From positions 1 to 51,425 of the forward strand of contig JALWQH010000034.1 in assembly GCA_027083135.1 (NCBI GenBank): a DNA stretch of 51,425 bases. Reading direction: 5' to 3'. Origin of the DNA: Desulfurococcales archaeon (lineage in GTDB: Archaea > Thermoproteota > Thermoprotei_A > Sulfolobales > WAQK01). Positions 4,628-48,996 of the stretch are shown piece by piece. Position numbers and translations under genes: made by a program. The stretch's first letter is position 1. Each line of letters opens with the position of its first letter. The notes under the pieces are model-generated. The model was given only the letters and a program-made list of their open reading frames with translations. It searched no databases and was not told the origin of the DNA.

Positions 4628-5191
4628 CACGTCACCATAGACTTTGCTGAGAGGCCTGTCGGCATCAACTAGGATCAGCTCTCCCCCTTCAGCCAGCCTC
4701 CTATAAATTCCCCTAACCCTCTCCAAGAGGCCTAGCTTCTGGAACCTGGCCTTATCCCAAGCCTCCCCCTCTTTACGGCTCAACCCAACCCTGGGGTCAA
4801 CGTCAAGGTATATTGCCATGTCGGGGCGAGGCACAAACCTGTTTAAACTCCTAATCCATTCTAACGGCACCCCTCTTGCCCCCTGATAAGCCAGAGAGGA
4901 ATGATAGTATCTATCCACAATGACTATATGGCCCTTCATCAAGGCTGGGCGCAGTATCCTTGAATAATGAAGAAGCCTATCAGCAGCGAATAGCATGGCC
5001 TCCACATATATTGACTCCCTATCCTCTCCCAGCCCCCTTATAAGCCGCTTATACTCCTCGAACCTGGGTTCATAGCTGCATGTTACAGGGTAGCCTCTCT
5101 TGGAAAGCTCCTTGCATAGTAGGCCTGCAATAGCGCTTTTGCCTGACCCATCTATTCCTTCAAGCGTTATCAGTGCACCTTTCCCCCACAT
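4580..5191 (-). CDS. tmk: Thymidylate kinase
   Basis: A 203-residue dTMP kinase, making dTDP from dTMP and ATP for DNA synthesis. The P-loop is EGIDGSGKS (residues 11-19), the DR(Y/H) motif is VDRYYHSSLAYQGA near residue 91, and the substrate Arg lies in CSYEPRFEE. The family length is normal. The ATG start at 5191 lies within the end of the upstream AcnX small-subunit gene (32-base overlap), so translation is probably coupled. Confidence 0.92.
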   Translation of the reverse strand: MWGKGALITLEGIDGSGKSAIAGLLCKELSKRGYPVTCSYEPRFEEYKRLIRGLGEDRESIYVEAMLFAADRLLHYSRILRPALMKGHIVIVDRYYHSSLAYQGARGVPLEWIRSLNRFVPRPDMAIYLDVDPRVGLSRKEGEAWDKARFQKLGLLERVRGIYRRLAEGGELILVDADRPLSKVYGDVLSLILGFLGRRGGRD

Positions 5192-16360: not shown

Positions 16361-16949
16361 TCCTCCTTCTCCCCCTGCTTCTCAGCATGTAGTCTGGGGC
16401 TAGTTTTCTGGGCTCCGTGTTCCCGCATCTAGGGCATTTCAGCATGTTTGAACCATGCTCTGCTACTAATAGCGCTCCGCATTGAGAGCAGTATGCTGCT
16501 AGCACTCCTAGCTGAGCATCCCTCATTGATACGTGCATCGGAATAGTGTCTCTCAGCACCTTTACTCTAACTAAATCTCCTAGGCGCACAGCGTCTGTTA
16601 TGCTCCTAGTATACTGTCTGCTCGCATGAGATACGTGCAGTATGCCGGTGAATGGTGTTCCAAAGGGCCTCCACTTATTATCCATGAGTATGCTGATCGT
16701 GGCTGAATCCTCCTTAACCGAGGTGACTACTCCTATAACCAGGCTTCCCGCCACAGGCCTTGGGGATTCCCTGTGGAAAGGCTTCACGATGACCCGCCTA
16801 GATGAATAATCGTAGAGCACTATTCCGGGAACCGCTGCTCTGACCTCGCCTCCCCTAACATACGTTAAGGATCCTGGCATGAACTCCTCAGGCGCGCATA
16901 GATAGTCTCCTGGAAGCACAGTTCTACTCTTAGCACCTCCCGCCTGCAC
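16341..16949 (-). CDS. csl4: Exosome RNA-binding subunit Csl4
   Basis: A 202-residue protein with the three Csl4 parts: an N-terminal domain (VLPGDYLCAPEEFMPGSLTYV), an S1 domain (VIGVVTSVKEDSATISIL through GDLVRVKVL), and a C-terminal zinc ribbon (CSQCGALLVAEHGSNMLKCPRCGNTEPRKLA). It forms the RNA-binding cap of the archaeal exosome. It overlaps the methyltransferase upstream by 20 bases. Confidence 0.93.
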   Translation of the reverse strand: MQAGGAKSRTVLPGDYLCAPEEFMPGSLTYVRGGEVRAAVPGIVLYDYSSRRVIVKPFHRESPRPVAGSLVIGVVTSVKEDSATISILMDNKWRPFGTPFTGILHVSHASRQYTRSITDAVRLGDLVRVKVLRDTIPMHVSMRDAQLGVLAAYCSQCGALLVAEHGSNMLKCPRCGNTEPRKLAPDYMLRSRGRRRSGEAKK

Positions 16950-38768: not shown

Positions 38769-39197
38769 CTAACATTGCTCTTTATTTTCCCTCTTCTCAG
38801 CGTATGGCTTAAGAACCTGTTTGGCCGCGTATTGTCTAGGTGTGCGCGGGGGTGCCCGAGCTAGGTCAAAGGGGTCGGGCTTAGGACCCGATGGCGCAGG
38901 CCTGCGTGGGTTCAAATCCCACCCCCCGCACCATGTTTTAGCTATGCGGTTAACTACGTCCTCTACGATCATCTTGGCGAGGCGCTTGTACATACCTCGT
39001 TTCGGCTTGTAGTTAACTGTTAACCCTTGCTTATAGGCCTGATATAGGAGGGTCATTTCCTCGAGGGGGCCTATGTACCGTGTCACTGGCCTGCCGTCAA
39101 GCCTGTACTCCTCGTAGACGTAGAGCCTTCCCTTAATCCTCTTAACCACAAGGGTCATGGAGTCTTGCCCAACCCTAATGATAGGCTGCCTGCTCAT
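38769..39197 (-). CDS. int(N): N-terminal part of the split tyrosine integrase
   Basis: Residues 1-88 (MSRQPIIRVGQDSMTL to RIAKT) belong to the integrase; from codon 89 the frame reads antisense through the tRNA (WCGGWDLNPRRP) and ends in chromosomal DNA at 38769. KRIKGRLYVYEEYRLDGRPV and YIGPLEEM resemble N-terminal regions of archaeal SSV-like integrases. The frame position at 38933 is exactly that of int(C) at 48996, so excision would rebuild one protein of 396 residues. ATG 39197 is clear. Confidence 0.85.
   Translation of the reverse strand: MSRQPIIRVGQDSMTLVVKRIKGRLYVYEEYRLDGRPVTRYIGPLEEMTLLYQAYKQGLTVNYKPKRGMYKRLAKMIVEDVVNRIAKTWCGGWDLNPRRPAPSGPKPDPFDLARAPPRTPRQYAAKQVLKPYAEKRENKEQC
38846..38930 (+). 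tRNA. tRNA-Leu (TAG), integration target
   Basis: Acceptor GCGGGGG (38846-38852) pairs with CCCCCGC (38923-38929), discriminator A 38930, CCA to 38933. Anticodon stem TCGGG/CCCGA with loop CTTAGGA gives anticodon TAG. A long variable arm (TGGCGCAGGCCTGCG region) marks it as class II Leu. No intron. A TATA-like GGCTTAAGAA lies at about 38806-38815. Its 3' half (38877-38933) is repeated at 48940-48996: the element's insertion keeps the gene whole. Confidence 0.93.
38877..38933 (+). repeat. attL core (tRNA-Leu 3' half)
   Basis: A 57-base copy running from the anticodon stem (GGGCTTAGGACCCG) to the CCA end. It matches 48940-48996 except for one base (C at 38897, T at 48960). The identity stops right after CCA, as expected for the tRNA-derived crossover region. 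Confidence 0.93.
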
Positions 39198-39240: not shown

Positions 39241-39849
39241 TCACCGCTCACGGCCCAGCCTAGTGGCCTCTTCTCTTGCCAGCCAGCCGTATCTGTGGAG
39301 CTCGTCTATGATGGTTTGAAGCACTGTGTCGTAGGCACGTATCCACGATGATATGGTGGCGTTGATCGCCTCTTCCACGTCTTCGCAGAACTTGCTGGGC
39401 CCATAGAAGTTGAAGATTGTGGAGCTTAGGAGCGGTCTTCTAGGGTTTAGGCAGGTTTCTGCTCTTCCTTCTATATCGTCTCCATACTTCTTTTTTAGCC
39501 TGTTTTCCAGCTCTTTTGCCCTCTGCATTGCTTTTTCATCCGCATACTTGTCTGGGTGGCTGGCGCCCAGCTTCTCTGATACTGCTTTCCTCACGTCTGG
39601 GGGCAGTATGTTCCATAATGCCAGTATCCTCGCCCTATAGTTGTCCCGCAGCCTGGTATCATAGTGGGCTTTTGCTGAGGCTTCCATGGCTCTGGCTATG
39701 GCGGAGCTCAGCACCCCCACGTAGGTCGGCATAATGTATTGTGGCGTGGATGCCTGGGGTTTCCCACCTGCCTGCCTTGATGCTGGCCTCACCTCTGCCT
39801 CACCTCTCGCGGCCCAGCCTGGTGGCCTCGGCCTTGACAAGCCAGCCAT
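39241..39849 (-). CDS. Element protein of unknown function, copy 1 of a tandem pair
   Basis: A 202-residue soluble protein, Lys/Arg/Glu-rich. It is a diverged duplicate of the next gene upstream: shared blocks are YIMPTYVGVLS, ARAM, ALWNILPPDVRK, VSEKLGASHPDKY, and the C-terminal DELHRYGWLAREEATRLGRER. The N-terminal 30 residues overlap the neighbour's end and are low complexity, so the true start may be a later GTG. No known domain is recognised. Confidence 0.6.
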   Translation of the reverse strand: MAGLSRPRPPGWAARGEAEVRPASRQAGGKPQASTPQYIMPTYVGVLSSAIARAMEASAKAHYDTRLRDNYRARILALWNILPPDVRKAVSEKLGASHPDKYADEKAMQRAKELENRLKKKYGDDIEGRAETCLNPRRPLLSSTIFNFYGPSKFCEDVEEAINATISSWIRAYDTVLQTIIDELHRYGWLAREEATRLGRER

Positions 39850-40399
39850 GATAGTAGAGGGCGTCTATGATTGTTCGGAGCACCTTGTCAAGGGCGTCCG
39901 CCTTTGCCGAGAGGAGGCTGCGTTCCACGCTCTTCACATCATCTAGGACTTCTGGGCATTCGAAGAGACTGCGATAGAGGTGTTTAGAATCCAGTTTTTT
40001 CGGCTCTATGCCCATTCCTTTAAGACGTTTGATCATTTCTTCCTCTTCTATTTCTAGGCAGTGTGCCAGGTTGCTGTAGCCGTGGCGTTTGTTCAGCCAG
40101 CTCCACAGCTTTTTCTCCTTTTCCTTCTCTATTCTGGCCACATAGGCGTCTGGGTGGCTGGCGCCCAGCTTCTCCGCCACGTCTCTGCGTACATCGGGTG
40201 TGAGTATGTTCCACAGCGCCATCACGCTTGACCTGAGAAGGCTTACCTTCCTCACATTGCGGTAGGTTTGCTGAACAGCGTTCATGGCCCTGGCTATCCC
40301 CTCGCTTAGTACTCCGATGTAGGTGGGCATGATGTACTTGGGGGCTGAGGACTGGGGTTTAGGCTGGGTTTGAGGTTTGGGTTTAGACATGGATTCCAC
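39800..40399 (-). CDS. Element protein of unknown function, copy 2 of a tandem pair
   Basis: A 199-residue paralog of the downstream gene, sharing YIMPTYIGVLS, ALWNILTPDVRRDVAEKLGASHPDAY and the ending DALYYHGWLVKAEATRLGRER. The Pro/Gln/Lys-rich first 20 residues are probably disordered. The conserved segments lie at both ends; the middle, including a charged helix (EKEKEKKLWSWLNKR), diverges. It overlaps the P-loop/HTH gene by 17 bases, so it is in the main operon. Confidence 0.65.
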   Translation of the reverse strand: MESMSKPKPQTQPKPQSSAPKYIMPTYIGVLSEGIARAMNAVQQTYRNVRKVSLLRSSVMALWNILTPDVRRDVAEKLGASHPDAYVARIEKEKEKKLWSWLNKRHGYSNLAHCLEIEEEEMIKRLKGMGIEPKKLDSKHLYRSLFECPEVLDDVKSVERSLLSAKADALDKVLRTIIDALYYHGWLVKAEATRLGRER

Positions 40400-41411
40400 C
40401 CTTTGTGAGCTTCTTTTTGACCTGGGAGATCGTGATGTGTGAGACGTGTAAGCGTCTCGCGATCTCGCGGTAGGAGAGGCCTTTCCCGAGGAGCTCGGCT
40501 ATCAGGGCTTCCTTGTCTCCGCGCCCCTCTGGGCTCTTCCTGCCCGCGGCTCTGGCCAGGTTTTGGAGCACGTAGTCTGTGTAGGTCTTCCGCTTCTCAT
40601 AGTAGTAGGGGTAGGCGTCCAGGCTCCGCTTAAACTCGTCTATGAATACGCGTTTAATCATAGTGTCCCCGCTGGGCATGACTAGGAGCCTGTAGCCTCT
40701 CGCCACGCTCCACTCCTTATCCTTCTTGGTGACTAGGACCAGCAGGCTGTCCACGCTTCTGAAGTGCCTGAGTATGAATGAGGGGTTAGGCGTGTTCATT
40801 AGAAGGGTGTTGAGCTTGACTCTGGCCGTCTGGAACAATGCGCTCATCAGCATCACCTTCCTCTTATCAATGAAGTAGAGGTATGAGGAGCCGTGGACCC
40901 CTGCATCATCCCATACTAGGACGGGTATCCTGGCCTCTGATTCCAGGAGCCTGTCTATCATGTCGTCAAGGCTGAACAACACGTATCGGTCGATAAGATG
41001 CTTCCAGGTCAGCCTTCTATTCAGGTAGCCCAGCACCTCGGCTGCAACCTTGATGTTGTAGACGCTCTTACCCACTCCCTGGCGCCCAAAGGTTATGACT
41101 GAGAGGAAGCCGTGTGTGTACCATTCATTGAGTATGAGGTCGGAGAGCACGAAGCCCGTGCTCCGCCTACGCGGGATTTCCTGAGCCTCTATGCCAGCAT
41201 TCTCCTCGAGGAGCACGGCCTCATCCACCGTCTCCACAGCCGCAGCCGCCTCGAGGAAGCTTGTAGCACGTGTAGCAGGCATGTAGCGCTCCCAAGTATG
41301 AGATAACGCTTGAAATATACCTACACTACGACCAGTAGCGGCTTGTAGCGGGCCTAGCCTCAGCCTAGTATAGTATGTATGTACGTGTGTATATAATGCT
41401 GTAGCAGCCAT
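40383..41411 (-). CDS. P-loop ATPase with C-terminal helix-turn-helix
   Basis: About 342 residues from ATG 41411, which overlaps the primase stop (TTAATGG) and follows GGGGGAG. Walker A is FGRQGVGKS (about residues 108-116), Walker B is IPVLVWDDAG, and TLLMNTPNPSFILRHFR resembles a sensor region. The last 40 residues form a helix-turn-helix (ALIAELLGKGLSYREIARRLHVSHITISQVKKKL). A TATA-like ATTATATACAC on this strand at about 41385-41396 hints at an internal promoter and a shorter product from ATG 41282 (MPATRATSF). Proteins like this may act in plasmid partition or copy control. Confidence 0.7.
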   Translation of the reverse strand: MAATALYTHVHTYYTRLRLGPLQAATGRSVGIFQALSHTWERYMPATRATSFLEAAAAVETVDEAVLLEENAGIEAQEIPRRRSTGFVLSDLILNEWYTHGFLSVITFGRQGVGKSVYNIKVAAEVLGYLNRRLTWKHLIDRYVLFSLDDMIDRLLESEARIPVLVWDDAGVHGSSYLYFIDKRKVMLMSALFQTARVKLNTLLMNTPNPSFILRHFRSVDSLLVLVTKKDKEWSVARGYRLLVMPSGDTMIKRVFIDEFKRSLDAYPYYYEKRKTYTDYVLQNLARAAGRKSPEGRGDKEALIAELLGKGLSYREIARRLHVSHITISQVKKKLTKGGIHV

Positions 41412-42814
41412 TAAGGCTCCCCCGCCACGTAGAATTTGACGCTGCGTGAGGGCGGCTCTTCGAGCTTGCCTGGCCCCACGTCTACCCACTCGCCATCCAC
41501 CAGGAATTTTCTGCCGAGTAGGCCTCTCTGGGCTAGGCTTCTAAGCAGCCTCGAGTAGCTGCTCCACTCCTCAGCCGTGAGGGAGCCGTGCCTGGACTCC
41601 AGCCACCTCTTAAAGTCATCATACCCGAATTCCCGTAGGCCAGTCTCCTCGAGGAACCTGCCCACCAAGCCTAGGCTGGAGGGATCCCATTCTGCCTGGC
41701 GGCCCAGGCTCTTCTTGCCTAGAGCTCCTGGTGAGAAGCGGGGCTGTTTTCCAATGGTCTGGGTTATGATGGCGTAGAGTTCTGGGTCCTTCTGCCTCAC
41801 TGTCTCGAGGCTTGGCGGGTGCTTGCCGTAGGATAATGCGCTTCTCACGTAGCTCTCGGCCTCGGCTCTGCTTATCCTGCTGCTCCCCCTGTAGTCTGGG
41901 CGCTTCTCGCTTCTCTCAGCGAAGTCTAGGAGCGTCTCCACGGCCTCGTCTTCAGGCATCTTGAGGGTGACTGCCAGGTATTTTGAGGCTATGTAGAATA
42001 TGAAGCGTCTACGCCCGTCTGGCAGGCCCCGCCTCAATATTTCTTCTATCCAGGGTATGCTGCGCGGCCTGTATCCATGCTTCTTGGAGAGGAAGCGTTT
42101 AGCCTGCCTTGCAGCCTGTCTTGCCAGGGCTTTTGAGACGGCTTGGCCTACCAGGCTTCTGGGCAGGGGGTGTGAGAGGTAGGGCTGCAGGCTGAAGCTC
42201 TCAGGCTCGATGGGTTTGAAGTCTGTGTCGAGGGGTGTCACAGTGTTGCCTGTTCCGTGGTGCTTGGTGTAGGGGGGCCTTGAGAGCACCGTGGGCCTTA
42301 TCACCACATAGTCTAGGCTTCTGAGCCCTAGGCCCGTTATGCCTAGAAGGCCTGCCAGCTCGGAGTAGATGTCTCCAGGTGTTTCTCGGCTGAGCATGCT
42401 TACATCTATGACTGTTGGGAGCCAGGCATGGATGTGTAGGCCTCTGCCACCAGTGTAGAGTACCAGGGGCTCGCAGTAGCTTCTCAGATGCTCTGCGAGC
42501 CTGCGTCCCTCGCTGAAAACCTTGTCTAGCGTGACACTGCCCTTGGCATCGAGGTCAAGCATGAGGCGCTCCACGCCTACAAGCAGGCCGTGGCCAGCAT
42601 AATACGATATAGATATGTAGACTGAGAACCCTGAGTCCATCCTCCCCTGGATCCACTGGGCCAGCCCATGGGCCTTCTCTGGCGGCCAGTAGTGCTGGCT
42701 GGGGGTTCCAAGCATCCTGCCCCACCCGAGCCCAGCCATCTCCTCGAGGCCGAGGCGCCCAGCAAACCATGCCTGCCAGACCTCATGTACATCCACGGCC
42801 CAGCACCCCCTCAT
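41411..42814 (-). CDS. Archaeo-eukaryotic primase-polymerase (prim-pol)
   Basis: About 467 residues from ATG 42814 (MRGCWAVDVHEVWQ). Motif I is VERLMLDLDAKG (Asp87, Asp89), motif II is VLYTGGRGLHIHAW (residues 118-131), and motif III is RPPYTKHHGTGNTVTP, the same three motifs as PriS. A helical-bundle domain (RRRFIFYIASKYLAVTLKMPEDEAVETLLDF) and a C-terminal winged-helix-like end follow. It would prime and perhaps copy the element. The frame stays open to 42967 through an iteron cluster; those 51 residues (His- and Gly-rich) look non-coding. Confidence 0.83.
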   Translation of the reverse strand: MRGCWAVDVHEVWQAWFAGRLGLEEMAGLGWGRMLGTPSQHYWPPEKAHGLAQWIQGRMDSGFSVYISISYYAGHGLLVGVERLMLDLDAKGSVTLDKVFSEGRRLAEHLRSYCEPLVLYTGGRGLHIHAWLPTVIDVSMLSRETPGDIYSELAGLLGITGLGLRSLDYVVIRPTVLSRPPYTKHHGTGNTVTPLDTDFKPIEPESFSLQPYLSHPLPRSLVGQAVSKALARQAARQAKRFLSKKHGYRPRSIPWIEEILRRGLPDGRRRFIFYIASKYLAVTLKMPEDEAVETLLDFAERSEKRPDYRGSSRISRAEAESYVRSALSYGKHPPSLETVRQKDPELYAIITQTIGKQPRFSPGALGKKSLGRQAEWDPSSLGLVGRFLEETGLREFGYDDFKRWLESRHGSLTAEEWSSYSRLLRSLAQRGLLGRKFLVDGEWVDVGPGKLEEPPSRSVKFYVAGEP

Positions 42815-42931
42815 CGGACAGGCATCGGACATGGATCGGACAAGAACGGACAAGCCCTCATGTCCGATCCCTTGATCACCATGTCCGTTTCCATGGATTT
42901 CATGGTGATTTTCATGGTGTAAGATCGGACA
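42813..42931. repeat. TGTCCGAT iteron cluster A
   Basis: Perfect octamers ATCGGACA or TGTCCGAT start at 42813, 42824, 42835, 42861 (opposite orientation) and 42924, with partial copies at 42845 and 42882. The first three are spaced exactly 11 bases apart, about one helix turn. The cluster lies at the start of the prim-pol gene. It resembles plasmid origin iterons or an operator array. Confidence 0.75.
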
Positions 42932-42963
42932 CACGGTGTTGTAGAGAGTGAGAGAGAATTTTT
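42924..42963 (-). repeat. Long inverted repeat, left arm
   Basis: Reads, on the minus strand, as an A-run, a CT-rich TTCTCTCTC tract, ACAAC and GTGTGTCCGAT. It matches the right arm at 43543-43583 at roughly 80 percent of positions, in opposite orientation, and joins directly to iteron cluster A. Confidence 0.7.
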
Positions 42964-42995
42964 CCATGGTTTTCCGAGGGTGGGTGAAAGTATTC

Positions 42996-43319
42996 CTAGG
43001 CGGTGATCCATGGTGCTGTCAGCCTCCTCAGCTTCTCAGCCAGCCTGGCCCCAGTCTCGGGCAGAGGGGCATCTTCCTCCAGCATAGCGTCTCTGAGGCC
43101 TCTGGGCAGGTTGTAGCATCCCTCACCCTTCTCGAGGAACCCCTTCTCCACTAGGCTCCTAGCCACGGCCTGGGGGTCCTTGATGCCCCTCACCCTGAGA
43201 TCCCTGTGTGCTGCGAGCTCCCCCACTGAGACCTCTTCGAGGAAGTAGGCCATGGCCTCTAGCTCCGCGGCCCCCAGCTCTCTGAGCATCCTTCTAAGCC
43301 AGGTGTTCAGGCCAGGCAT
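42996..43319 (-). CDS. Winged-helix DNA-binding protein
   Basis: A 107-residue protein with a winged-helix pattern: LEAMAYFLEEVSVGELAAHRDL, QAVARSLVEKGFLEKGEGCYNL (recognition helix plus wing) and a C-terminal amphipathic helix. It lies exactly between the two TGTCCGAT clusters and the inverted-repeat arms, and overlaps the helicase-like gene by 13 bases. It is a natural candidate to bind the iterons. It resembles the C-terminal domain of the helicase-like protein, perhaps by duplication. Confidence 0.65.
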   Translation of the reverse strand: MPGLNTWLRRMLRELGAAELEAMAYFLEEVSVGELAAHRDLRVRGIKDPQAVARSLVEKGFLEKGEGCYNLPRGLRDAMLEEDAPLPETGARLAEKLRRLTAPWITA

Positions 43320-45286
43320 ATTGACGGCACCCCCTCGCCTGTTAGACGCTCCTCCACGACCCCGTTCTCCACAAGTGTTTTGATCAGGCCTGAGGCCTGC
43401 TCCCTGGATAGGTGTAGGGTGCTGGCCAGGGCCTCTATGAGCTCGGGTAGGGGTCTACAGGTCTCGCCATAGGTTTCGAGGAGTGCTAGGTAGGCGTCCC
43501 TCGGAGAAACCTCCTGTTCCTGCCCAGCAGCCTTCTCCTCGGAAAAAATTCTCTCTCTCATCTCACAACATTGTGTGTCCGATGTTTCTACCCCTGTTTC
43601 CGTACCTGTCCCACCGTGATCGGACATGGATCGGACATGGAGTTTGTCCGATGTTTGTCCGATGTTTCCTTGAGCCGTGTCCGATCCTTGTCCGACCCCT
43701 GCGTCCCCCGTCTGGGAGAGGATTTCCCTTACCTCAGCGTAGGCCTCGGGTATAATGAGGTACTTGTGGGGCCTGCCCTTCTCATCCTTAGCCAGGATCC
43801 CCAGGTCTACTAGGTGGTTCAGCACTCGTCTGAGGTGGCGGGCAGAGGATCCCACACATGCTTGGAGCGCCTTATCGCTGGCTGTCGCGGGCTTCTCAGA
43901 ATCCATGCCTAGGCCGAGCTTCTCCATGCATCTCAGCGCCTTAAGGTCCACTTCCTTGAAGCCGCGGGCCTGGAGCGATATGTCTCCGAGCATCCACCGC
44001 TTAACATAATCCACATCCTCTCTGGCCGCCACCACGTATTCTTCTCCGCCTATCTCTACTTTCTCCCTGGTGTGCTGGTGTAATGCTGCCATGGCCATGA
44101 CTGCGGCTAATAGTTTCTTGAAGTCCCTGCGCACCCTGACCGAGTCCGTGGGCAGGGCCTTCATCAGCTCCTCTGCATAGTCCCGCGGAATGTACACCTT
44201 GACTGGTCTCAGGTCTCTGAAGAAGAATCTGAGGAGCTTGGCCTTGGCCTCGATCTCCTTACCACGCTTAATGTATTCTGGACTGCTGACGAGGCTGGCC
44301 AGGTGCTCGAGGATCCGCCTGGTCTGCTGCTCGCTGGTGTCTGGCGTGGCGTAGAAGGTCCTGTTCTCCATGTCCTCATCAATCGTTATGGCTGTCGTGG
44401 TTGTGATGAATACTGGCACACCGACCAGCCTCTTCTCCACTGTCTCAAGCTCCCCTGTCTTCTCGTTCCGCTTCACGTAGAGGATGGATATGTAGCCCTC
44501 GCTCAGCGTTATCCTCACGCTGTATGAGGATGAGCGCACACCCTCATACTCCTGGATGTAGAGGATCTGGCGGTCAATATTGTCTGGCAGGTAGTCTAGG
44601 GCTGTCCTAGTCAATCTCGTTACCACTTTCCACCACTTCTTAGGGGTCACCTTGAGGAAGGCCCTTACTAGGTTGTTTTTGCCTACTGATGAGGGTCCCT
44701 GGAGAACCATGTGTAGGCGCCACTCCTGGGGAAGGAAGCGCGAGGCGATCACGGGGATGGCCTGCCTCTTAGCCTTATCATCCCCGATGTGGTGGAAGTC
44801 CACGACCTCGAGGATGCGGCTGACAGGGTCCTCGTAGATCGGCCTGAGCTCATCCCAGTGCTGCTCCCTGTACTCTTCTAGCCTTCTACGCCTCTCCTCC
44901 CTCTTCCGCCTGACCTTCTCCCTGTAGAGCTCTATGAGCCTTGGAACAACCTCCACGTCAAGGTAGCTGAACAGCTCCCCCAGCTTCAGCCGCTTCTTAC
45001 CGATTACTGGGAGCCGTTTCCTCAGCGCTGTCCTGAACATATCATACTTTGGATAGATATAGAGGTCCAGCTTGCCTGCAGGGATCTCCATCCTGCTGAC
45101 AACCTTATCGCCTTCAACCAATGCCAGCTCGACAAAATACTTGGCAGTCCTACCCTTGCCTACGCGCTCCAAGCTTACTGCCAGGTGGGCTGACCCCGCC
45201 AGCGGTATAACCGCCACTCCATCCTCGATCTCATGGGTCAGCCCCTCAGGCCTAGAGACCAGCTCCTCGGGCCTCTCCACACTCAC
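43307..45286 (-). CDS. Helicase-like AAA+/SF3 ATPase with C-terminal winged helix
   Basis: A 659-residue protein. The ATPase core has a P-loop VLQGPSSVGKNNLVRAF in which the Ser/Thr after Lys is Asn (GKNN, codons AAA AAC AAC), a Walker B-like RQILYIQEYEG, VFITTTTAITIDEDMENRTF (sensor and arginine-finger-like NR) and DTSEQQTRRI. This layout matches phage and plasmid replicative helicases. A basic helix (RRKREERRRRLEEYREQHWD) precedes the core; winged-helix segments (KALQACVGSSARHLRRVLNHLVDLG and the last 60 residues) follow, joined by an iteron-encoded linker. GTG 45286 overlaps the Cas4-like stop (ATGTGAGTG). Confidence 0.75.
   Translation of the reverse strand: MSVERPEELVSRPEGLTHEIEDGVAVIPLAGSAHLAVSLERVGKGRTAKYFVELALVEGDKVVSRMEIPAGKLDLYIYPKYDMFRTALRKRLPVIGKKRLKLGELFSYLDVEVVPRLIELYREKVRRKREERRRRLEEYREQHWDELRPIYEDPVSRILEVVDFHHIGDDKAKRQAIPVIASRFLPQEWRLHMVLQGPSSVGKNNLVRAFLKVTPKKWWKVVTRLTRTALDYLPDNIDRQILYIQEYEGVRSSSYSVRITLSEGYISILYVKRNEKTGELETVEKRLVGVPVFITTTTAITIDEDMENRTFYATPDTSEQQTRRILEHLASLVSSPEYIKRGKEIEAKAKLLRFFFRDLRPVKVYIPRDYAEELMKALPTDSVRVRRDFKKLLAAVMAMAALHQHTREKVEIGGEEYVVAAREDVDYVKRWMLGDISLQARGFKEVDLKALRCMEKLGLGMDSEKPATASDKALQACVGSSARHLRRVLNHLVDLGILAKDEKGRPHKYLIIPEAYAEVREILSQTGDAGVGQGSDTAQGNIGQTSDKLHVRSMSDHGGTGTETGVETSDTQCCEMRERIFSEEKAAGQEQEVSPRDAYLALLETYGETCRPLPELIEALASTLHLSREQASGLIKTLVENGVVEERLTGEGVPSICLA
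43543..43583 (+). repeat. Long inverted repeat, right arm
   Basis: An A-run, TTCTCTCTCTC tract, CACAAC and GTGTGTCCGAT, the mirror copy of 42924-42963. It lies inside the helicase-like reading frame, in the stretch encoding its flexible linker. Confidence 0.7.
43576..43696. repeat. TGTCCGAT iteron cluster B
   Basis: Perfect octamers start at 43576, 43619, 43630, 43645, 43656 and 43678, in both orientations, with a partial copy at 43689. Pairs are again 11 bases apart (43619/43630 and 43645/43656). The cluster is translated as a Gly/Ser/Thr/Asp-rich linker between the ATPase core and the terminal winged helix of the helicase-like protein. Confidence 0.75.
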
Positions 45287-45915
45287 ATCTCCTCACCTCC
45301 ACGAGAAGCATAACACCTCAATGCATATGGACAAAAACTGCAAAGAATGCTGGGCTCGGGTCTTGGGGGCTTGTTCTCGAGGATTGCTCGATGGAGTGTC
45401 CTGGCCCTCTCCACTAGGAGACGCCAGAGCTCGGGGTCCCATTGGTGCCTGTAGACTCTGACCAGGCCGTCCTTCTTCTTGATGTAGACAACATAGCCGT
45501 GCTTGGCTCTCAGCATGTAGAGATAAGCGTTAAGCTGCATTACGTGCGAGCGGTAGGGGGACTCAGGCGTCTTTGAAGCCGTCTTGAGCTCCACTACAAT
45601 GCTGTTCTCGGGGTGGTATAGGTCTGCGTGGCCTGCAAGCTTGAAGCCTCCGAGGTCAGCGTAGGCCTCCACCTCGCTCAGCCAGCCCTGCCCAGCCAGG
45701 TATGCCTGGAGAGCCTCATGAACACCATTACCGATGGCGTAGACTATGAAGCGTGGATGAGCCTCGCTTAAACCGTATTTCCTCTCATACCAGGCCTTTC
45801 GCAGACACCCCGTAGCCTCGGATACATGGATGACATTGGGCCTATACTGCCTGGCCCTATGCTTAGCGATTTCATAAAACCAGCGATAGACCACGCTTGC
45901 CGTCAGCTCAGCCAT
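45283..45915 (-). CDS. Cas4-like RecB-family nuclease
   Basis: About 210 residues from ATG 45915, eight bases after GGAGG. The PD-(D/E)xK core is GFKLAGHADLYHPENSIVVELKTASKTPESPY with catalytic D, E-x-K and downstream HVMQLNAYLYML (motif QxxxY). Four cysteines, GCLRKAWYERKY plus CSFCPYALRC at the C-terminus, can bind the [4Fe-4S] cluster of Cas4. There is no CRISPR array or cas1/cas2 in the window; such stand-alone Cas4 proteins occur on archaeal viruses and plasmids and may serve in replication or recombination of the element. Confidence 0.85.
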   Translation of the reverse strand: MAELTASVVYRWFYEIAKHRARQYRPNVIHVSEATGCLRKAWYERKYGLSEAHPRFIVYAIGNGVHEALQAYLAGQGWLSEVEAYADLGGFKLAGHADLYHPENSIVVELKTASKTPESPYRSHVMQLNAYLYMLRAKHGYVVYIKKKDGLVRVYRHQWDPELWRLLVERARTLHRAILENKPPRPEPSILCSFCPYALRCYASRGGEEM

Positions 45916-46321
45916 CACCATCGCCTCCACTAAAGCCTTGCATAAAGGGACATCGAGGGGTGCCGTAGAGCCCGCAGACCCCTGAGTCCGAGAAGCATGA
46001 GGATAAGCAGGGATGCTCCTCGAGCCAGAGGTGTAGCTCCTGGGGCACGAGGTAAAGCAGGGGCCTTGAAGTCCTCCATGGGACGAGTAGGCCTAGCCTG
46101 GCAAGGTGTCTTAGGGCTAGGCCCACCTCAGTGTAAGCATTGCGGCCCTCGAGGCCTAGGGCCTGAACAACCCGTTTAGCGCTCAGCGCCTTAGCCCCAG
46201 GATGAAGCCTGAGGTAGGTAAGCACGAGGCCTAAGCCTCTAGCCAGTCTAAGCTTGTAAATTCTCGAAGTGGTTTTAGGGCGTGAAGAAAAAGATGTGAC
46301 CAGGGGAGCCCGTATCGCCAT
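45908..46321 (-). CDS. Winged-helix regulator with Cys-rich tail
   Basis: A 137-residue protein: ALSAKRVVQALGLEGRNAYTEVGLALRHLARLGLLVPW is a winged-helix DNA-binding domain. The tail (CLSSCFSDSGVCGLYGTPRCPF) has four cysteines that could bind a metal. It overlaps the Cas4-like gene by about 8-23 bases and is in the leftward operon. Confidence 0.65.
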   Translation of the reverse strand: MAIRAPLVTSFSSRPKTTSRIYKLRLARGLGLVLTYLRLHPGAKALSAKRVVQALGLEGRNAYTEVGLALRHLARLGLLVPWRTSRPLLYLVPQELHLWLEEHPCLSSCFSDSGVCGLYGTPRCPFMQGFSGGDGDG

Positions 46322-48083: not shown

Positions 48084-48996
48084 GGCTCATCTCCCCTGCC
48101 TGCAGCATAGTAACATGTCTACGCGTATTGGTGCCGTGCAGGCCTGCCCCCCTCAGCCATTCGGCATAGATGGGGTAGAAGGTGTCTGCGAGTGTTATGA
48201 GTCTGAGGTAGTGTCTGCTTAGGACTTTGCGTGGAATCCTGCCCTGGATGAAGTCTATTGTGCTCTCGATCTCGGTCATCCTGTGCTTGAGGGCCAGCTC
48301 ATACATCTTGGTGGCAGCGATCTTCCTCACATACTTGGGGGAGAGGAGCCTGTGCTTGGATGCCCAGTTGCTCACCCACTTCGCAGACACGGTTAACCGT
48401 GGGGGGACCTCTATGCTGTAGAGCTGGTAGCTGTCCTTAGTGCCCCGCTCCCAGTCTATGGGGTACCTGTAGAGGCCTGGCTTGAACTCCACCCACAATT
48501 CAGGCCTCTGGGTTGACAGGACCTTGGTGACCTCGTCCAGCCTCATCCCAGAGTAGAGGAGCAGCCTATACGTCCAGCACAAGGCTTCCGAGGACCTGCA
48601 GGCCCTGTCCACGGCTTGCAGGGCTTCCTCTGTGCTGGGAACCCTGCTGTCAGGCCTGCTCCTCTTGCTCTTCACGGCTCTGAACAGCCTGCACGCATCC
48701 TCGAGGCCCATCTGCTCGCACATCCACCTCAAGAAGCGTTTCCAAGCTGTCACGCTCCACCTGTTGGAAGGGTTGAGGGGCTTCTGCAGGTAGCGTATAT
48801 AGCCCTTGCACTGCTCCTCAGACGCGCTCCTCAAGCACCACTCGTGGAAGCCTTTGAGACGCCTGTTATCCACAAGCCTCTGCAAGTCCACGTAGTTAAC
48901 TCTAAGCGTGATAAGCGTATGTGAGCTAGGATGGGCGCTGGGCTTAGGACCCGATGGCGTAGGCCTGCGTGGGTTCAAATCCCACCCCCCGCACCA
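48070..48996 (-). CDS. int(C): catalytic part of the split tyrosine integrase
   Basis: The catalytic half of a tyrosine recombinase, 308 residues from the att core to the stop at 48070. LLLYSGMRLDEVTKVL holds the first catalytic Arg, STIDFIQGRIPRKVLSRHYL the second Arg and the His, and TFYPIYAEWL the Tyr region characteristic of SSV-type archaeal integrases. The open frame continues 60 codons beyond the att core to 49176 in chromosomal DNA, but this part is not needed. In the excised circle the frame joins int(N) exactly, giving 396 residues. Confidence 0.88.
   Translation of the reverse strand, partial: WCGGWDLNPRRPTPSGPKPSAHPSSHTLITLRVNYVDLQRLVDNRRLKGFHEWCLRSASEEQCKGYIRYLQKPLNPSNRWSVTAWKRFLRWMCEQMGLEDACRLFRAVKSKRSRPDSRVPSTEEALQAVDRACRSSEALCWTYRLLLYSGMRLDEVTKVLSTQRPELWVEFKPGLYRYPIDWERGTKDSYQLYSIEVPPRLTVSAKWVSNWASKHRLLSPKYVRKIAATKMYELALKHRMTEIESTIDFIQGRIPRKVLSRHYLRLITLADTFYPIYAEWLRGAGLHGTNTRRHVTMLQAGEMSRVSS
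48940..48996 (+). repeat. attR core (partial tRNA-Leu copy)
   Basis: The 57-base duplicate of the tRNA-Leu 3' half, from the anticodon stem to CCA, with one mismatch (T at 48960). The 5' half is absent, so it is not a tRNA. A short GAGCTAGG upstream (48923-48930) also recalls the tRNA, offset by two bases. Confidence 0.93.

Follow-up and report, generated by a model that had tools for sequence, protein, structure and literature searches.

Mirror-image iteron arrays around a PBP2-like gene: a candidate split replication origin in an integrative archaeal plasmid

What is the function of two mirrored clusters of one octamer that lie on either side of a small gene in an archaeal contig? The window analyzed here is a stretch of 51,425 nucleotides from a Desulfurococcales archaeon, and the integrative element in it that holds both arrays is called the W element. 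The preliminary description of this DNA had counted eleven perfect TGTCCGAT/ATCGGACA octamers, and all eleven are in place. It had also judged them to be rare by chance; dinucleotide shuffles of the window average 0.79 copies, with a maximum of 4. The genome-wide count that it proposed as a check gives 17 copies of TGTCCGAT in 1,747,803 bases. Eleven of the 17 fall in 42813-43685, and the six outside the arrays are all singletons. The reversed spelling of TGTCCGAT (read backwards) occurs 68 times in the genome. With up to one mismatch allowed, sites at 42845, 42882 and 43689 are gained, which gives 14 sites in the arrays (seven per side) and one in the rest of the window. Read outward from the center, the strands are -,+,+,-,-,-,- on the left and +,-,-,+,+,+,+ on the right, opposite in 7/7 pairs. 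Randomized layouts matched the mirrored positions equally well in 370 of 100,000 trials. The inverted arms of about 40 bases are found as well, as 43-nt inner arms, and they are the top-ranked inverted repeat within the surrounding 10 kb. Taken alone they are modest, with a score of 25, and 10-kb shuffles reach up to 28. Aligned as mirror images, the ~170-nt half-sites score 41.5, while 500 random pairs from the element score 17 or less. The analysis confirms the pattern and makes it stronger than first described. As in iteron origins, the word in the W element is short, regularly spaced at roughly helical distance, unique to the replicon and beside replication genes. Coordinates are collected in Table 1.

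The W element is ~10.1 kb long and is bounded by 57-bp direct repeats that are identical at 56/57 positions. The integrase matches PF16795 (2.2e-28) and PHROG 5127 (2.9e-64). Its N-terminal fragment (38934-39197) lies at the opposite end from the C-terminal part, as in SSV-type partitioned integrases. With its split integrase, tRNA-Leu gene and direct repeats, W is an SSV-type integrative element. The gene order on the minus strand is Cas4-like nuclease, helicase-like P-loop protein, PBP2-like protein, prim-pol and DnaA-like ATPase. The small conserved protein encoded 5' of the nuclease gene has no Pfam match. Near the attachment site, 39241-40399 encodes two adjoining similar proteins (202 and 199 aa) with no assigned function. 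The helicase shows 47-53% identity with those of relatives and weak relatedness to fusellovirus proteins. Past approximately residue 515, its reading frame continues into an iteron-encoding linker and then a C-terminal HTH-like domain. The right cluster had been placed inside the helicase-like frame; this is correct, and it occupies specifically the in-frame linker between the conserved part and the HTH-like domain. The predicted structure of the helicase has a low pLDDT of 36.5, and its DNA-binding domains are putative. The prim-pol gives PDB profile matches to PriX and PriS. The left cluster had been assigned to the start of the prim-pol frame. It probably precedes the gene instead, because homologues begin near 42832 or 42814, and it sits between the PBP2-like gene and this probable start.

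Table 1. Features of the W element and iteron words of its relatives (1 mm, one mismatch; spacing in bp)
Feature	Position	Strand	Remark
Attachment repeat, one end	38877..38933	.	3' part of tRNA-Leu gene 38846-38933 (ARAGORN)
Attachment repeat, other end	48940..48996	.	within integrase reading frame
DnaA-like ATPase, C-terminal HTH	40383..41489	-	PHROG 5484, 5e-34
Prim-pol with PriX-like and C-terminal domains	41411..42832	-	PriX PF18689, 6.8e-20
Left half-site	42813..42931	.	seven TGTCCGAT-type iterons, spacing mostly 10/11 bp
Left iterons	42813-, 42824-, 42835-, 42845- (1 mm), 42861+, 42882+ (1 mm), 42924-
Left inner arm	42921..42963	+	79% complementary to 43544-43586; matches in blocks, P=0.006
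PolB1-binding-protein-2-like (PBP2) gene	42996..43319	-	PF22511, 8.7e-25
P-loop helicase-like replication protein	43307..45286	-	homologues align to ~residue 515
Right inner arm	43544..43586	-	79% complementary to 42921-42963
Right half-site	43576..43696	.	seven iterons, in linker of helicase ORF
Right iterons	43576+, 43619-, 43630-, 43645+, 43656+, 43678+, 43689+ (1 mm)
Cas4/RecB-like nuclease	45283..45930	-	87% identical to nuclease of second element, same genome
Small conserved protein, 5' of nuclease gene	45908..46321	-	75% in L036; 33-37% in L037, L038, L040
L036 iteron word			GGTAGATGGA, spacing 10
L038 iteron word			ACTTGACCGAC, spacing 9
L039 iteron word			CATTCCGTTT, spacing 12
L040 iteron word			GTTCCAG, spacing 9
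L041 iteron word			GTACCATAA, spacing 9
L042 iteron word			AAAGGTCATG, spacing 11
L043 iteron word			ACTTACTACA, spacing 9

Relatives were collected by prim-pol searches and taken with their flanks, followed by an unbiased word count and a scan for self-inverted repeats; L-numbers denote loci of relatives and comparisons. Scans of viral and genome contigs with the helicase and prim-pol proteins gave no matches. Eight relatives with both helicase and prim-pol genes were examined (L036-L043), and related elements share the gene order of W. At the helicase/prim-pol junction, all eight carry a mirrored array or a long imperfect palindrome, and each spells it with its own word. The check for the same octamer in relatives is borne out for the layout, which recurs, but not for the octamer, which is not shared; the words differ by element. 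With W included, no inverted repeat in the surrounding 7-10 kb outscores the junction repeat in any of the nine elements, though in L036 there is a tie. The nine scores are 20-80 against shuffle means of 16-18, and seven of them beat all 30 shuffles; the exceptions are W, as given above, and L036 (20, maximum 23). L037 has the palindrome with merely weak TTCCA repeats. Elements with a W-type helicase (W, L042 and L039) space their words by 11-12 bp; where the remaining elements have clear tandem words, these are 9-10 bp apart. L042 is also split. Its 119-nt arms are 73% identical and 512 nt apart, and PBP2 plus a C-terminal helicase extension lie between them. Near two more distant prim-pol genes (L044 and L045), the scan found no such palindrome. 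This genome has another element of the family, L036 (G000 contig 44, 14854-20000), with a compact palindrome at 16646-16749. Its DUF5906/SF3-type helicase is homologous to the replication proteins of pRN2 and pDL10 (1e-21). Elsewhere, a 328-nt palindrome with ten GTCGGTA in mirrored groups lies downstream of a prim-pol gene (L068 2652-2979, G123 contig 1). Mirrored CCGTGAC and GGTGAAA arrays at 8-9-bp spacing occur near more distant prim-pol genes (L077/L078 and L073).

The gene between the W arms had been described as encoding a winged-helix protein. Such a gene is present, and its product can now be named more precisely as PBP2-like, with a PF22511 match of 86.7 bits against a curated cut-off of 27. 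The host's own PBP2 (G000:C16) shows 51% identity with it over 78 aa. Sulfolobus PBP2 is a winged-helix protein that binds the thumb of PolB1, and no binding to single- or double-stranded DNA was detected (PMC5418573). The earlier idea of an operator with a regulator bound on both sides is unsupported, since the protein encoded between the arms is a homologue of this PBP2. A further PBP2 copy in G084 led to a third PBP2-carrying element, L184. Here the helicase linker holds an unsplit array with GTGTCC three times per side, and the genes for PBP2 and for a prim-pol-like relative of the L042 protein come next. Next to the PBP2 copies in G217, G008 and G175, recognizable element genes were not found. 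It is unusual for a plasmid to carry a polymerase subunit and to place its gene between half-sites.

As a positive control, pRN1 was scanned blind, and the 100-bp stem-loop at 5084-5183 ranked first. This stem-loop is essential for replication by experiment (PMC3869888, PMC4234260). The counterpart also ranks first in pRN2, pHEN7 and pSSVx, and in pDL10 it is weak and third. The arms of pRN1 contain TGTCC twice each, 9 bp apart, and those of pRN1 and pRN2 are built of tandem 9-bp-spaced TGTCC/GGTCC words. The recurrence of this layout at the matching junction of eight relatives, together with the recovery of the pRN1 origin by the scan, supports the iteron-origin part of the preliminary description, with origin activity in W as a candidate function. 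On this comparison, the two arrays are probably the mirror-image half-sites of the origin from which an integrative archaeal plasmid replicates. Most likely the feature is a split, iteron-rich origin, a new form of a generally known kind.

The two elements of this genome suggest which protein recognizes the words. Between W and L036, the nuclease (87%), the prim-pol C-terminus (77%) and the 137-aa protein (75%) are shared, while the helicase, the prim-pol N-terminus and the iteron word differ. Because the helicase and the prim-pol N-terminus differ together with the word, the simplest inference points to one of them as the predicted reader. PBP2 is an unlikely reader, since its Sulfolobus homologue binds PolB1 with no DNA binding detected (PMC5418573). 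The DnaA-like ATPase was considered as a reader and dropped, as its relatives were found only in L040 and L041 and most examined loci yielded none, although contig ends cut some of the loci short.

In the split-origin reading, the element would excise, and its own helicase/prim-pol would then use winged-helix domains to bind the iterons in double-stranded form. One helicase could be loaded at each half-site, in opposite orientations and next to the inner arm, and prim-pol would make primers after helicase loading. The PBP2-like protein may recruit or hold host PolB1, which is the most speculative step. The sites may stay silent during integration. A universal AT-rich unwinding box beside the iterons was considered and is unsupported. 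Melting is only slightly favored at the inner arms of W (7th-10th percentile of stability), and it is not favored at those of L042. Further points count against the split origin. In relatives the palindromes are found within or next to operons, which would also fit a role in controlling the operon, and pRN1 mutants suggest a paired stem. Silent or regulatory roles of the arrays are possible as well.

The leading alternative takes the functional form to be a stem-loop or cruciform, the shape put forward for pRN1, in which the iterons would merely result from the stem. As single strands, compact relatives form strong folds (z -5 to -12.7, with pRN1 at -7.9), and the W region folds better than its own shuffles (z -5.8). 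A pRN1 stem mutation that abolished replication was rescued by a compensatory change that restored symmetry (PMC4234260). However, the arms are 580 nt apart in W and 512 nt in L042 with genes in between, a poor cruciform; the compact ~100-nt stem-loop of pRN1-type origins is absent from W, where each half-site alone folds only locally. In four of the six elements tested, the arm matches group into blocks (W, L042, L037 and L068 at P 0.002-0.010); L039 and L041 do not show this. A stem, moreover, needs no tandem iterons at constant spacing. We regard the stem-loop form as unlikely. An operator is less probable still: a DNA-binding protein of the element would bind both arrays and control the helicase-PBP2-prim-pol operon by looping. 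The distance of ~0.65 kb between arrays, the 11-bp phasing and the left array just 5' of prim-pol would suit this, and iteron origins often autoregulate too. The right array, however, lies within the helicase reading frame and not at a promoter, and compact relatives carry one palindrome only. The pRN1 equivalent is an origin located downstream of its operon, and the protein encoded between the arms is PBP2-like, with a homologue that lacks DNA binding (PMC5418573).

Element-specific iteron-like arrays would also suit a centromere-like partition site or an incompatibility site in place of an origin. No segregation gene was recognized among the element proteins scanned, though, and replication of pRN1 depends on the counterpart; we consider this reading very improbable. 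The lowest probability, close to nil, is given to arrays that mark the termini of an insertion sequence or an invertible segment. A ~600-bp segment is indeed flanked by mirrored repeats, and 29 genome contigs, almost all of them bacterial, contain TGTCCGAT triplets spaced by 11 bp. But no transposase or recombinase gene lies between the arms, and relatives retain the layout despite unrelated words and with loops down to ~24 nt. Ten neighbor proteins, taken from a sample of these contigs and from viral contigs, were varied (RecG-C/AlbA-type, secretion ATPase, phage integrase) and included no transposase, and octamer arrays as insertion-sequence ends were dropped on these grounds. The bacterial tandem TGTCCGAT arrays are probably unrelated operators. 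Such arrays with 11-bp spacing are seen in L113-L141 (e.g. L115, L116 and L121), and three adjoin RecG-C-type (HATPase_c_4) proteins.

The replication start of archaeal prim-pol plasmids is disputed, with rolling circle or another mode argued for pRN1, and the sequence of the pRN1 stem-loop is not conserved. A mirrored design with differing words, split forms included, makes the choice between stem-loop and binding sites directly testable. Element-specific words linked to the helicase could explain the coexistence of related elements, two of them in this genome. The split form suggests a unifying reading of pRN1-type origins, which we put forward tentatively, as a proposal that could well go either way. 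Archaeal prim-pol plasmids and some fuselloviruses may have one origin design in common, mirrored iteron half-sites rewritten together with the helicase. The pRN1 stem-loop would be the compact member, and W and L042 would be "exploded" members, in which each half-site is its own helicase loader and a PBP2-like polymerase subunit is supplied from between.

Among known systems, the closest are pRN1, pRN2 and pHEN7, which also replicate by prim-pol and helicase and have a mirrored structure (there a ~100-bp palindrome) beside the replication genes, with a sequence that varies between plasmids. In pRN1, the prim-pol and helicase are joined in one protein, and the origin, previously described as without iterons, lies 3' of the gene with a 58-nt loop. 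W instead has separate genes, 11-bp spacing and seven sites per half, and its halves are 580 nt apart around PBP2 and a winged-helix-like domain, both of which also lie between the halves of L042. Long palindromes also adjoin homologues of the W helicase in the fuselloviruses ASV1 (L060 3447-3599) and SSV12 (L061 3099-3262), and the SSV12 palindrome has 9-bp-spaced CGACACA words. Unlike W, these are virus genomes with a compact palindrome. They are possible virus origins. Lambda-type origins encode iterons within the initiator gene, in a linker of the replication protein, as does the right array of W in its helicase; however, the W proteins are unrelated and a second mirrored array lies outside the gene. 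In crenarchaeal chromosomal oriC, ORB elements read by Orc1/Cdc6 flank an AT-rich region (PMC3718332). W similarly has candidate initiator sites on either side of a central region, but the words of the W family, unlike ORB elements, are element-specific.
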